Part shown: piece after piece, positions 25,147 through 32,122 of the stretch
Layout of the letters: each line of letters opens with the position of its first letter
Position numbering within the stretch: position 1 is the first letter of the stretch
Assembly: GCA_016199085.1 (NCBI GenBank)
Contig: JACQHJ010000009.1
Span: 1-41,666, forward strand
Direction of reading: 5' to 3'
Length of the DNA: 41,666 bases
From: Candidatus Levyibacteriota bacterium
GTDB taxonomy: Bacteria > Patescibacteriota > Microgenomatia > Levybacterales > UBA12049
Translations under genes and position numbers: made by a program
The notes under the pieces: generated by a model
What the model saw: the letters and a program-made list of their open reading frames with translations, nothing else
The model's database searches: none
Told to the model about the DNA's origin: nothing

Positions 25147-26934
25147 ATGGCGATGAATATAACCAGGGCTGAAGTTCCTGTGCCAATAATTCCTGAAAAT
25201 CTGCCAGCAAGGATACCTGAGATTATTGCAAATCCTCCCTTAAAGGATCTTAGAATTGCTTATTCCATACCTGTTCATCTACCCAAAGAATACGCTGAGG
25301 GTTTTTTACAAAGAAATCTACTCGGAATGTTAAGCCAAAGGCTTTCTTTGGGAAATGCTATGGAAGTAAATTATGTTTTTAACGAAGGCGGGGGACATGC
25401 GTCCGAAGACTCCGACTTACCAGCTCCAACCGACAAAGATAAGCAGATTGAGAGAAAAGCAATAGGTTTTGTTAAAAAGGTGATAGCAGTACAGCGCCTT
25501 GCAGCTCTTGCAAGAAAGGCAGCAGAGCAGGGGGAATATAAATATCAGGCAGATTTAGACACTCTTGTAAACCAAGAAGAAGATCCAGAACAAAAAACAA
25601 TACTTGAGCTTGCTGCTCAAAAACACGGTAGCGTTGCAATAAGCGCCATAGATGCTACGGAAACTGACCTGAGGTCATTAGGTTATAGAGGAAAAGCGAT
25701 ATTTAGATATAGAACTCTTGGGGCCGATTATGCAAAAGCAAGACTTCCAGATCAAGATTCTCTGTTTCAACTTTATGACGTGGATACTGTTCCCGCAACC
25801 AACGATACTACACAAAGGGTAATTGATTATTTCTTTAATGAACATCCAGATGCTGTTTACAATTTCTTATCAATGTCCTATGCCCTGCCAGGAACATGCA
25901 TGAATTTAGTTTTAACTTCTCCAACGTATTCCACAGGTCATATGGCAACGTATAATCTAGAACCACAAACCTATAAAGGGTCTCCACAAATATGCTTTCG
26001 GATTGGCGCATTTAGCAAACTCAAGACAATAGGAACGAATATTTTTGATTCTTTTATGGATTATGACACCGCTAAACACCTTACATATTCTTTTGGACCT
26101 ATTTCCTCTGCCCTTTTTGCAACATCTTTAACCAGTGATAGAATAGGATTTTCAGACGGAAAAAACAGAGATAGTTTAGGCAAAAGAAATGACTTTGATT
26201 TAATAAAGACCTGGATTTACGATCTTGAGGAAATAATCGCTAATGCGAATATGCATCCAAACGGTGGTGCTTCATCAGAAACTATGAGAAGAGATTTAGA
26301 TTTTGCGTTAGAATATTATCAGCGCCAACAAAAGATATTAAGTAGATTCCATCGACTTGCAGCCAGGCAATTTATAAGGTTATATGATAAAGGGGCAATA
26401 ACAATTCATGATGGAGAAATTAACTTTAACGGAGAAGATATTTTAAAAGCCGACACTTCTTCTACAACCCCTTCAAAACTGGATCCCAAGGGTAATAAAA
26501 GACCTTTTGGAAGAAGTATACTTTCATATATTTCTGCAAACAGGGACCTACTTTCAAAGCTTAAACCAGGGGATATAAAAGTTTTAAAATATTATTTGGG
26601 ATTTTCTGAGCAACCTGAGTTTCCAAAAGGAGTTCAATTTACAAATTTTCATGGCGTACTTAGAGAATACTTCGGTGAATATTCAAACGATGTAAATGAT
26701 ATTAGCGATGTAGCTAATTTTGAAATATTAATAAGAGGTAAAGATAATAAAACTTCCCTTTTACATCCGATTTTTACCCAGATACTTGCTTATGCAATAA
26801 TAAGAACTGTTTACTACAGAACAGATCCGCCAATGTTTGGAGATCAACATGATGACAGGATGCCACAAATTGCCATTGAGGAAAAAAATAGAAACAAAGC
26901 CTGGATTTCCCAACATCTAGATAACCTTTCGTAA
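25147..26934 (+). CDS. Uncharacterised 595-aa protein with possible divergent GT-A (glycosyltransferase-like) core
   Basis: DLRIAYSIPVHLPKEYAEGFLQRNLLGMLSQRLSLGNAMEVNYVFNEGG resembles a GT2 N-terminal beta-alpha-beta; SLFQLYDVDTVPATNDTTQRVIDYFFNEHPDAVYN resembles a DxD strand region. Confidence 0.6.
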   Translation: MAMNITRAEVPVPIIPENLPARIPEIIANPPLKDLRIAYSIPVHLPKEYAEGFLQRNLLGMLSQRLSLGNAMEVNYVFNEGGGHASEDSDLPAPTDKDKQIERKAIGFVKKVIAVQRLAALARKAAEQGEYKYQADLDTLVNQEEDPEQKTILELAAQKHGSVAISAIDATETDLRSLGYRGKAIFRYRTLGADYAKARLPDQDSLFQLYDVDTVPATNDTTQRVIDYFFNEHPDAVYNFLSMSYALPGTCMNLVLTSPTYSTGHMATYNLEPQTYKGSPQICFRIGAFSKLKTIGTNIFDSFMDYDTAKHLTYSFGPISSALFATSLTSDRIGFSDGKNRDSLGKRNDFDLIKTWIYDLEEIIANANMHPNGGASSETMRRDLDFALEYYQRQQKILSRFHRLAARQFIRLYDKGAITIHDGEINFNGEDILKADTSSTTPSKLDPKGNKRPFGRSILSYISANRDLLSKLKPGDIKVLKYYLGFSEQPEFPKGVQFTNFHGVLREYFGEYSNDVNDISDVANFEILIRGKDNKTSLLHPIFTQILAYAIIRTVYYRTDPPMFGDQHDDRMPQIAIEEKNRNKAWISQHLDNLS

Positions 26935-28215: not shown

Positions 28216-28809
28216 CTATGCTGCTGCCTGATGGGTTTTTGCCTTCCGTTCTTCCTCAACCCAGAAATCTTCTGTCTCACGTCTCCATTTATCATGTAGA
28301 GGTATCGAGATAGCCGTATCGGGAAGAACGAATTGTTCTCTCTTCATGTTTCTGGGTATGTTTCCAGGTTGAAACACGCCTTCTTCATCTGTATATCCCC
28401 AGACTGGCCCACCAAATCCGAAGTCATATTCCAATTTTCTCCTATGATTGAAAACAGCACATTTTTGATTAGGGGGCGCAAGCAAGGTAGGAAATACCTC
28501 ACAGGGAATAAACAAACATTCTTCACTAAACTCTACCTGTTCCAGGGTTGGCACATCCTCATCTCTATCTAAGCTATATGCTCTTTTGTCCAGTCTATAA
28601 TAACCTGGTCTTACCGGCATCGTGCCTCCTATTTGCATAATAACTTTTAAGGGCTCTCCGCTTGGATCATGTAATAATTCCCCTCTTCTAGGCTCATACA
28701 CCGTAAGTATCATTCCGATCCAAGTTTGGCGGTAGTTAAGTAGAGGTGTTTTGAGAGTAAGATCCTCAGTTCTTTCAAGTCTGTCTCTTGCTTCTGTTAT
28801 TACTGCCAT
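28216..28809 (-). CDS. Hypothetical protein (~197 aa)
   Basis: Start MAVITEARDRLERTEDL at 28809 downstream of a good promoter; protein-like composition; no recognised family. Confidence 0.65.
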   Translation of the reverse strand: MAVITEARDRLERTEDLTLKTPLLNYRQTWIGMILTVYEPRRGELLHDPSGEPLKVIMQIGGTMPVRPGYYRLDKRAYSLDRDEDVPTLEQVEFSEECLFIPCEVFPTLLAPPNQKCAVFNHRRKLEYDFGFGGPVWGYTDEEGVFQPGNIPRNMKREQFVLPDTAISIPLHDKWRRETEDFWVEEERKAKTHQAAA

Positions 28810-28832
28810 TTTGGTTTGATAAAGCCGAGAAA

Positions 28833-28861
28833 ATAGTAGCAATAGAATTTTAAAGTGTCAA
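28833..28861 (-). promoter_or_regulatory. Promoter TTGACA-17-TACTAT upstream of the hypothetical gene
   Basis: Reverse strand TTGACA (28861..28856), 17 nt, TACTAT (28838..28833). Confidence 0.6.
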
Positions 28862-28891
28862 TGATTTATATTTTTAAAACATTCCGTAATT

Positions 28892-29188
28892 TTAAGTAAC
28901 TGAAGTATCTTTTATAGAAGGCAGGGTTCTTTGAATACCAAGAGAATTCATGTTTTGACCAACTTCTGTTCTTGCTCTAGCTATAGCGCTTCGTGCTTGA
29001 CGAGTTTGTGTCTTAACAACCCAAGAATCCGGATCTCTTTTCTCTCTTAGTTGATACAACCCATCCAATAAGTCCGCATGTAGTCTTGCCCTAATATCTC
29101 CTAACTGAGTAAGAACAAGAGGCTCACCTCGATCTTTCCATTTTTGCAATCTTTCCCCAAAGGCAGTCCTTCTAGCTTCTATTGCCAT
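28892..29188 (-). CDS. Hypothetical protein, 98 aa
   Basis: MAIEARRTAFGERLQKWKDRGEPLVLTQLGDIRARLHADLLDGLYQLREKRDPDSW; alpha-helical, charged; no recognised family. Confidence 0.55.
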   Translation of the reverse strand: MAIEARRTAFGERLQKWKDRGEPLVLTQLGDIRARLHADLLDGLYQLREKRDPDSWVVKTQTRQARSAIARARTEVGQNMNSLGIQRTLPSIKDTSVT

Positions 29189-29277
29189 ATTTAATTATTA
29201 AAATACCTGTTAGGAATATAGACTTTTTAAGAGGACCCGTCAAGAAGAAATATTTTTAAATCTTTTTGGGAAAAATG

Positions 29278-29723
29278 TTAGGAGTTGCCTTCTACTTCTT
29301 TTGCCAATCGCTTTCTTCCAGCATCTGAAATACGGTATAAAGTTTTTGTAGTAGTCATCCCTAAGTTTGTTCTACTCATGGGTAATAATTCTTTTCTAAA
29401 ATCCAGCCCCATTCCCTAAGTCTTTTTAAAGCCCCATAAAACATTCCGAAACCACTCTTGCCAGTGGTGAGATCTGGTTCTATTTGTCTTATAAGAGAGT
29501 AACCTTCTACCTCAGGCTGCCTTGGATCAGTTTCCTGCAGATAATCTACAACTGTTAAGATTGTTATTTCAATCGGTGTCAGATAATTTGTCACTTTTAC
29601 TGTTTTAGCTGTACCACTAGCGTCTCTTTGTTCTTCAAAGACATATGATCTTCTACCGTGATAGCGATAGTATCCATGTAGAAATGGGAGCCTATTTGGT
29701 TCCCGTGTTCTCTCATTTATCAC
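29278..29723 (-). pseudogene. PadR-like winged-helix transcriptional regulator interrupted by a -1 frameshift (ORF-track part: 29376..29723)
   Basis: Frame 1: LTPIEITILTVVDYLQ...EGYSLIRQIEPDLTTGKSGFGMFYGALKRLREWGWILEK; the -1 frame continues ELLPMSRTNLGMTTTKTLYRISDAGRKRLAKEVEGNS*, matching the PadR wing/C-term (YxIxxxGxxxL). Pseudogene, programmed shift, or assembly error. Confidence 0.6.
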
Positions 29724-29895
29724 GAAATTATAACAATTTAATGTAAGAAAATGAAATTACGTAAAACAGAGGAAATTAATTCTTAATAAAAAACCGCATC
29801 TTAACCATGCTTAAAGATGAATTCTTACATGTTCTTGTTGACATATTTACATAATTGTGGCTTAATTAATAAAGACTGAAAATATATATTCTCTT

Positions 29896-29909
29896 TGGTA
29901 TAATACCAT
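29896..29909 (+). promoter_or_regulatory. Extended -10 (TGGTATAAT) inside palindrome TGGTAT-A-ATACCA, upstream of the protease cassette
   Basis: ctttggtataataccataccATG: TATAAT 29899-29904, TG at 29896-29897; ATG 29913. Confidence 0.6.
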
Positions 29910-29912
29910 ACC

Positions 29913-30104
29913 ATGCCAGAAGATAAAAAAATAAGATTTATAAAAACGTTCTCGAACTTACCATTAAATATTAGGAACGAAATAATATATGTTTTTCCTG
30001 ATAAAGGACCAATCACATGGAATGTGGCATTTATTGAAATCATAAACAATACTCCTCTTGGGAAAGAAATACTTGAAAAATTAGACAATCTTAACCTTAT
30101 ATGA
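29913..30104 (+). CDS. Small uncharacterised protein (63 aa), first gene of the cassette
   Basis: MPEDKKIRFIKTFSNLPLNIRNEIIYVFPDKGPITWNVAFIEIINNTPLGKEILEKLDNLNLI; promoter directly upstream; stop overlaps next start (ATGA). Confidence 0.7.
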   Translation: MPEDKKIRFIKTFSNLPLNIRNEIIYVFPDKGPITWNVAFIEIINNTPLGKEILEKLDNLNLI

Positions 30105-30334
30105 CAAACAAAGAAAGACAAAAAGAAATTATAGAATTAGTTAAAGCAAGGCTATCAATCTTACCTCCAGATGCAATCCTATCAGTTGGATCATTTGGGG
30201 AACTAAAAAAAGACCAAGTGATTAAAGAAGTTGAAAATAATACGGAAATAGGTAAAAAGATAGTAGAGGTGCAAATGGAATATTTACAAATGCTTAAAAA
30301 AGGAATTTTTTATGGCGAAGCTGCTAATAACTAG
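30101..30334 (+). CDS. Small uncharacterised protein (77 aa), second gene of the cassette
   Basis: MTNKERQKEIIELVKARLSILPPDAILSVGSFGELKKDQVIKEVENNTEIGKKIVEVQMEYLQMLKKG...; ATGA overlap with the upstream gene and a long overlap with the downstream gene. Confidence 0.72.
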   Translation: MTNKERQKEIIELVKARLSILPPDAILSVGSFGELKKDQVIKEVENNTEIGKKIVEVQMEYLQMLKKGIFYGEAANN

Positions 30335-30956
30335 GCCACTTTACGAAGGCACCACTCATTACTTATTTTTTTGGAGTAATACTGTAATCGAATTTGCGAA
30401 AACAAAATCTTACGACATTTTAGATCTAAAAATAAAAAAGGCCAACAGAAAAACCTTGGAAAGTTATTTAAGCAATAATAAGCCAAACTTCGTTATCTTA
30501 AATGGACATGGTTCTTCAGATCTAATTGCTGGTCAAGACGATGAGATAATAATTAAAGTCGGGGAAAATGAGAAAATACTAAAAGGAACTATTGTATATG
30601 CTTTATCCTGTAAAACAGGACAGATATTGGGTCCTAAAAGTATCGATGGAGGAACCATATCTTATATTGGATACAAAGAAGATTTTAGCTTTTGGGGAAA
30701 TTCAAGTTATACTGCGAGACCACATACCGACCCGAGAGCTAAGTTATTTTTTGAACCTTCAAATTTAATTCCATTATCTCTTCTTAAAGGACATAATGTA
30801 AGGGAAGCTTGTGAGAAAGCTAAAAACGCATTTAGAGAGAATGCAATAAAATTAATCACATCTGATTCACCAGATAAATTTGTTGTTCCAGATTTAATAT
30901 GGAATATGGTTCATTTATCAAGTTTTGGCGATGATAATGCTAAAGTAGAACAATAA
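30312..30956 (+). CDS. Putative caspase/gingipain-fold (clan CD, C25-like) cysteine protease
   Basis: PNFVILNGHGSSDLIAG (His-Gly block) and KGTIVYALSCKTGQILGPKSIDGGTISYIGYKEDF (strand then Cys block) fit the His/Cys dyad arrangement of clan CD. Confidence 0.7.
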   Translation: MAKLLITRPLYEGTTHYLFFWSNTVIEFAKTKSYDILDLKIKKANRKTLESYLSNNKPNFVILNGHGSSDLIAGQDDEIIIKVGENEKILKGTIVYALSCKTGQILGPKSIDGGTISYIGYKEDFSFWGNSSYTARPHTDPRAKLFFEPSNLIPLSLLKGHNVREACEKAKNAFRENAIKLITSDSPDKFVVPDLIWNMVHLSSFGDDNAKVEQ

Positions 30957-31000: not shown

Positions 31001-32122
31001 CTAATTCTTATTCCTTAAGAATGCGGGAATATCCCATGTGTCATCCTCTTCTTCCTCAACTGGCGGTTGAGGGGGGATGTTTTGATTTTGATTCGCGTTT
31101 GTCTGTTGCTGGTTTTGTACCGGCTCTTCTGTCTGGATTGGAGCAACAAACTCTCTAAGCACTTGTCTTGTCTGATCAAAACCAGTTGCAACAACTGTAA
31201 TTTTAATCTGGTCATGCATTGTGTCATCAATTGTTGCTCCAAAAATTATGTTTGCATCCGGATCTGCCTCAGAAGCAATGATTTTTGCTGCTTCATCAAC
31301 CTCTGACATTGTTAAATCAGGTCCTCCCGTAATATTAAACAAAACTCCCCTTGCTCCCTGCATTGATATTTCAAGCAATGGTGAGGAAACAGATGATCTT
31401 GCAGCAGTCTGGGCTCTGTTTTCTCCAACACCAGTTCCTATTCCCATAAGAGCAGATCCTGCATTTGCCATAATTGTTTTTACATCAGCAAAGTCTACGT
31501 TGATAAGACCGGGAAGAGTAATAAGTTCCGAAATTCCCTGAACTCCCTGGGTTAAAACCGAATCAGCAACCTTAAATGCTTCAAGTAAGGAAAGTTTTCT
31601 ATCAACGACGTCCAATATCCTTTGGTTTGGGATTACGATAAGAGTGTCAACTTTGTCCTTTAACTGCTCAATTCCGTCTTCTGCGGCAACCATTCTTCTT
31701 GTTCCTTCAAAAGAAAACGGCTTTGTAACAACGGCAACCGTAAGCACTCCTAATTCTTTTGCAGCTTTTGCAATAATAGGGGTTGATCCTGTTCCTGTTC
31801 CTCCGCCCATACCTGCTGTTAAAAAAAGCATGTCTGTTCCATTTATTAATTCTTTTATTTTTTCAAAAGATTCCTCAGCCGCTTCTTTTCCAATGTCTGG
31901 ATTTCCACCACTCCCAAGTCCCTTTGTTAAGTTTTCGCCTATCTGAAGTTTTGTAGCCGCCTGATTTAGTAAAAGACTCTGCGCATCAGTATTAACGGAG
32001 ATAAAATCGACATTTACAATGCTGTTTTGCGAAATCATTGTATTTAAGGCGTTTGATCCCCCGCCACCAACACCCATTACTCTAATTTTTGCAAAGTTGG
32101 TTGTCTGTGGTTTTATTAACAT
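31001..32122 (-). CDS. ftsZ: Cell division protein FtsZ
   Basis: [18 protein letters not shown]...[25 protein letters not shown]...; C-terminal peptide [10 protein letters not shown]. Confidence 0.98.

Follow-up and report, generated by a model that had tools for sequence, protein, structure and literature searches.

Three closely packed genes, here called A, B and C, lie beside ftsZ in the window, that is, the whole stretch of 41,666 nucleotides analyzed here, which is part of a Patescibacteria-type genome of 939 kb. Do they form a functional unit, how widely is such a unit distributed, and what might it do? The original prediction had read them as a tightly coupled cassette, in which two small proteins sharing a motif precede a protease-like protein of clan CD, and had compared them with conflict or cell-death modules built from an adaptor and an effector.

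Arrangement and putative promoter of the cassette

The features of the region are collected in Table 1. The three reading frames proved exact to the base, including the ATGA overlap of A and B (30101–30104) and the 23-nt overlap of B and C (30312–30334), and the cassette is indeed convergent to ftsZ, found on the opposite strand 44 nt past C.

Table 1. Features of the cassette and its surroundings in the window
Feature	Position	Strand	Length	Description
ORF	25147-26934	+	595 aa	No Pfam match
Three small ORFs	28216-29723	-	208, 98 and 115 aa	Left of the cassette; no Pfam match
Putative promoter	29876-29904	+		Weak -35 CTGAAA, 17-nt spacer, extended -10 TGG-TATAAT
Gene A	29913-30104	+	63 aa	No known family
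Gene B	30101-30334	+	77 aa	No known family or solved fold
Gene C	30312-30956	+	214 aa	Predicted compact clan-CD (caspase/CHAT-like) cysteine protease fold
ftsZ	31001-32122	-		Tubulin match; convergent neighbour, end of division gene cluster

The proposal that all three genes are read from one promoter stood in part: an extended -10 box, TGGTATAAT (29896–29904), and a weak -35 are present, while a scan of the region did not, overall, exceed chance. The putative -10 box ends 8 nt 5' of the A start. Of 38 bacterial loci, 20 have a -10-like box 2–12 nt 5' of the A start, against 5.7 expected in shuffled sequences, and none of the 38 carries a Shine-Dalgarno sequence before A; the two features together suggest that the A-B-C mRNA is probably leaderless. 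The same combination, boxes at 2–12 nt from the start and no Shine-Dalgarno sequence, hints at leaderless transcripts in Patescibacteria.

Distribution and conservation

A sample of 389 genomes of the phylum was searched for C, B and A. Any of the three was detected in 13 genomes, and all three in 11. Strong C scores were obtained in 12 genomes, spread across 11 families; these 12, and no others, gave B as well, and 11 of them also contain A; the remaining A is an orphan, in genome G122. The one genome with C and B only (G193) lacks A because the contig ends there, B lying within 50 bases of its end.

A wider scan covered 85,488 species and was seeded with A patterns, drawn from a narrower A alignment, so that C homologs having other partners outside CPR and DPANN may have been missed. 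It returned 45 loci, 40 of which carry the full A-B-C series on one strand; of the five incomplete ones, three are cut by contig ends, L074 has no C and L082 is broken. In both samples the three genes thus keep together, as expected of the conserved neighbourhood that had been anticipated. Spacing is tight, mostly -4 to +12 nt between A and B and -38 to +13 nt between B and C. In five close pairs pN ranges from 0.05 to 0.23, versus a pS of 0.36 to 0.88, for A, B and C: purifying selection acts on each of the three. Since dozens of genomes contain homologous triplets, with such low pN relative to pS, the cassette is not a chance arrangement of open reading frames. The literature searched, in partial coverage, contains no description of it.

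The loci span many Patescibacteria (CPR) lineages and archaea, mostly DPANN. Sixteen records bear archaeal titles, being assigned to Woesearchaeota, Micrarchaeota, Aenigmatarchaeota, Diapherotrites, Nanoarchaeia, unnamed archaea and single bins, the latter one each of Methanoperedens, Marsarchaeota and Thaumarchaeota. Several of the single archaeal matches may be misbinned, as bins can hold foreign contigs. Contamination is ruled out as the source of L091, where the cassette sits in the complete archaeal chromosome CP010426; in the C tree, moreover, the archaeal C sequences form two groups. These groups are apart from the bacterial sequences, while single lineages, such as Uhrbacteria, turn up at several places, a layout suggesting, with moderate support, that exchange has occurred mostly within domains.

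Mobility, neighbours and decay of C

In the order to which the window belongs, 9 of 82 genomes hold the cassette, one of them (G444) at three places, and the sites differ between relatives. No constant flanking genes were found, neighbours varying in nearly every locus compared, and the idea of additional conserved genes beside the cassette was therefore rejected. A link to cell division through ftsZ was likewise discarded: in G400, of the same order, the cassette (L116) also follows ftsZ closely, yet with reversed orientation, and further relatives carry it elsewhere, so that the spot is probably no more than a tolerant end of a gene cluster. The cassettes of the window and of L116 are only distantly related (37% identity in C), and what follows ftsZ differs among all the relatives inspected. 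Plasmid copies were looked for, and none was found. Genes of defence or toxin-antitoxin systems occur among the neighbours; those for defence (AbiEi, IetA, TOTE, type II restriction, Fic) are few and scattered, so that a link to defence islands is no more than a possibility.

Four loci have a damaged C, or none, but still carry A, mostly together with B: C is interrupted by an in-frame TAA in L022, truncated in L029 and deleted after about 16 codons in L074, which keeps A; in G122 A stands alone, both B and C being absent. No clear case of an intact C lacking A or B away from a contig end was seen among the loci. Such decay would be predicted if the cost of the cassette lay in C; some of the defects in C may, however, stem from misassembly. 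In G122 (region L059:7676-9658) the orphan A lies directly 3' of a seemingly ClpP-like SDH-type serine protease gene, near a restriction-modification protein, and a gene similar to that protease gene is found near the broken L022 cassette.

Viral copies

Eight scans revealed an orphan A on one viral contig only, the phage contig IMGVR_UViG_3300002460_000115 (L141:4998-5177), where it is located in the early region, adjoining O-like replication and NinG genes. The encoded protein is up to 54% identical to A proteins of Patescibacteria and is altered at P33 and A39, two positions invariant in 51 cellular A proteins. A profile search of the full 32-kb record detected no C, and B is absent from the two thirds of it that were read. 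A different situation occurs in the Methanofastidiosa virus BK063666.1, which encodes, in the region L060:5705-6648, a C homolog (profile E 1e-45) and, directly 5' of it, a 66-aa B-like protein, both annotated as hypothetical. This C homolog is the sole one featuring a clear C-terminal membrane helix.

Protein C

AlphaFold2 modelling on ten homologs gave a confident prediction for C (mean pLDDT 96, pTM 0.92), and the clan-CD fold originally proposed was well supported by Foldseek, whose top matches, ranging from E 2e-7 to 3e-4, include SAVED-CHAT (8tl0, 2e-7), gingipain R (1e-5), caspase-11 (5e-5), TPR-CHAT (2e-4) and also caspase-4. Three of the four best are regulated death or immune proteases. 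The NGHG, ALSC and ISYIGY motifs, which had been singled out from the sequence, are found in C as quoted, and the His/Cys pair is conserved, as predicted, in practically all homologs (His66 in 48 of 49, Cys100 in 49 of 49). The predicted dyad falls at strand ends, strands E60-64 and E94-98 preceding His66 and Cys100, respectively; Asp140, Gly74 and Gly67 are also invariant. In one homolog (L027:6688-7323), adjoining intact A and B, the catalytic His is replaced by Tyr, and this copy may be an inactive pseudo-enzyme.

Assignment to C25, CHAT or C14, also envisaged in the original prediction, was not confirmed at the profile level, even if CHAT proteins and gingipain are the nearest folds. None of 48 members matched CHAT (PF12770) or Peptidase_C14 (PF00656) at E <= 0.1, and Peptidase_C25 (PF01364) was matched below cut-off, and weakly, by only two of the 48 (best E 0.009). 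When C was compared by profile to CHAT domains of Patescibacteria, the HG and SC motifs and a later Asp aligned, though the match was not strongly significant (P 0.04 for the local and 0.006 for the global comparison). Fold matches and the lack of a Pfam family, taken together, describe C as a predicted compact member of clan CD at the fold level, belonging to a family which appears to be new by sequence. Hydropathy analysis found no strongly hydrophobic segment, of the membrane or signal type, in nearly all C proteins.

Proteins A and B

Proteins A are highly conserved considering how small they are, with 39–61% identity to the A of the window across bacteria and archaea. They share the core F..Y.NLP..LR.EI..V...PITW.VA..EI...T.LG..IL.KL, and R21, P33, W36, A39 and E42 are invariant in 51 sequences. 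B is predicted to fold into a helix, a beta-hairpin and two helices (AlphaFold2 pLDDT 89), an arrangement with no match in the PDB; R17, G30 and G51 are invariant. Pfam, PADLOC and PHROGs yielded no match for A, B or C of the window, the only two NCBIfam matches being far below cut-off, and no Pfam family convincingly matched the A and B homologs.

The notion that A and B share motifs survived as a faint resemblance: profile-profile comparison gave P 0.037 with 12 sequences and 0.005 with 50, the latter over 26 columns, too weak to retain a common domain. We also considered B as a winged-helix DNA-binding protein. A PDB profile of the OmpR type was matched at E 0.11, and two B members matched Trans_reg_C, at best with E 0.03, neither being significant. 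DNA-binding proteins usually carry a net positive charge, while A and B are soluble proteins with no such charge; given these weak profile matches and the lack of a fold match, this assignment was rejected. Among the 54 A and 52 B proteins examined, none contains a hydrophobic 19-mer above 1.6.

Comparison with known systems

The CHAT proteases found among the best fold matches of C, SAVED-CHAT (8tl0) and the TPR-CHAT protein Csx29 of Craspase (7y84), are regulated caspase-like proteases of prokaryotic immunity; in contrast to them, C is a lone 214-aa domain, with no SAVED, TPR or CRISPR parts and no PF12770 match. Gingipain R (1cvr) matches C with a TM score of 0.65 over C and has the same His-then-Cys order, but C25 peptidases are secreted and much larger, and C remains below the Pfam cut-off for them. 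With caspases, metacaspases and orthocaspases (C14) C shares the His/Cys dyad and the fold, as seen in the matches to caspase-11 and caspase-4, but has neither a PF00656 match nor a p10 domain.

Small partner genes located 5' of a caspase-superfamily gene are known from the EACC1-caspase and EAD systems, for which a role against invaders has been proposed (Kaur et al. 2020, PMC7159879; Kaur et al. 2021, PMC8195603). EACC1 spans the membrane, EADs form fusions with effectors, and the reported systems come chiefly from multicellular bacteria. A and B, instead, are soluble and stand-alone, and match no described adaptor family. As judged by Pfam and by the features described, neither resembles the six-helix, fused EAD/Death-like adaptors, no fusions having been seen, and the hydropathy values just reported contain nothing like the membrane-spanning upstream partner EACC1. 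The caspase conflict systems of Kaur et al. and the CHAT proteases associated with CRISPR or SAVED are thus the nearest described systems, none of which, as far as tested, has A and B partners.

In the sampled Patescibacteria the cassette was found in 12 of 389 genomes, CHAT in 4 of 196, C14, rare in the phylum, in 1 of 147 and C25 in none of 118: the cassette is at least as frequent as any of these families.

Discussion

The explanation that we prefer, to which we give slightly better than an even chance, is that the cassette serves ultra-small prokaryotes as a mobile conflict module with three components, the protease C being restrained or licensed by A and B. C would be a cytosolic cysteine protease of caspase/CHAT fold, acting as the effector, and A and B its small dedicated partners, made from the same mRNA in a fixed order. 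The two would form a complex with C, either keeping it inactive or licensing it, until a trigger, most likely phage infection, releases it; free C would then cleave one or more host or viral proteins, and cell or infection would be arrested. The A carried by the phage might be a stolen inhibitor. Complex formation, the part played by A and B (inhibition or sensing), trigger, substrate and protease activity are inferred. The original prediction, a conflict or cell-death module built from adaptor and effector, would fit here, and is favoured by the patchy distribution, the selective decay of C and the orphan A on a phage. The joint occurrence of the three genes and the purifying selection on them, the likeness of C to regulated death or immune proteases, its conserved dyad, the change of site between relatives and the C homolog of the archaeal virus point the same way. 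The strong conservation of A, unusual for a fast-evolving component of immunity, counts against it, and so do the scarcity of defence genes nearby, the finding of an orphan A on a single viral contig and the chance that some broken C genes are misassembled. A more detailed version seems to us possible, but doubtful: here a caspase-fold immune or cell-death module, equipped with a new pair of regulators of its own, would be largely restricted to the two episymbiotic radiations, CPR and DPANN, and pass between their members, and a phage would have acquired a lone A, altered at P33 and A39, as an anti-defence factor against it.

Several of the same observations would be accounted for by plain toxin-antitoxin addiction, where A, along with B, would be the antitoxin to a toxic protease C, and post-segregational killing maintains the genes with no need for phage sensing. 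As in toxin-antitoxin pairs, small genes overlap a larger effector downstream, the set is mobile and patchy with no fixed neighbours, the effector is lost first while A or A-B stay, and an orphan partner is found on a phage. The cassette differs in being conserved as a set of three, with two partner genes, and in having a caspase-fold protease as the presumed toxin, since the likeness of C is to immune proteases under regulation and not to known toxins of this kind; plasmids, moreover, contributed no matches. We regard this explanation as unlikely, though deserving consideration.

Proteolysis could also serve regulation: C might cleave B or A, and so act as a switch on transcription or physiology, perhaps during symbiosis or under stress, with no killing involved. 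Craspase cuts Csx30 and CalpL cuts CalpT, which offers a precedent, and both the faint likeness of B to OmpR-type winged-helix domains and the strong conservation of A would agree. The OmpR and Trans_reg_C matches are not significant, however, the predicted fold of B has no PDB counterpart, and both A and B lack the charge usual in DNA binders, while patchy occurrence speaks against a role in core physiology; such a circuit is, in our opinion, quite unlikely. A last alternative, suggested by the cassette being largely restricted to episymbiotic lineages, sees C as an effector or digestive protease delivered into the host cell of CPR or DPANN organisms, and A and B as its chaperones. Strongly hydrophobic segments are missing from every A and B and from nearly all C proteins, only the C homolog of the archaeal virus has a clear C-terminal membrane helix, and the secreted gingipain and C11 relatives are much larger, all of which makes delivery very improbable.

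Judging from sequence and predicted fold, A, B and C make up an apparently new module of regulated proteolysis, probably directed against viruses or involved in cell death. As a minimal system of about 1 kb, it lends itself to testing how caspase-like proteases are activated by small partners. Should the conflict module hold true, the A borne by the phage may reveal how viruses disarm the cassette, and regulated proteolysis, possibly programmed death, would occur in stripped-down organisms of about 1 Mb, which mostly live attached to a host cell.
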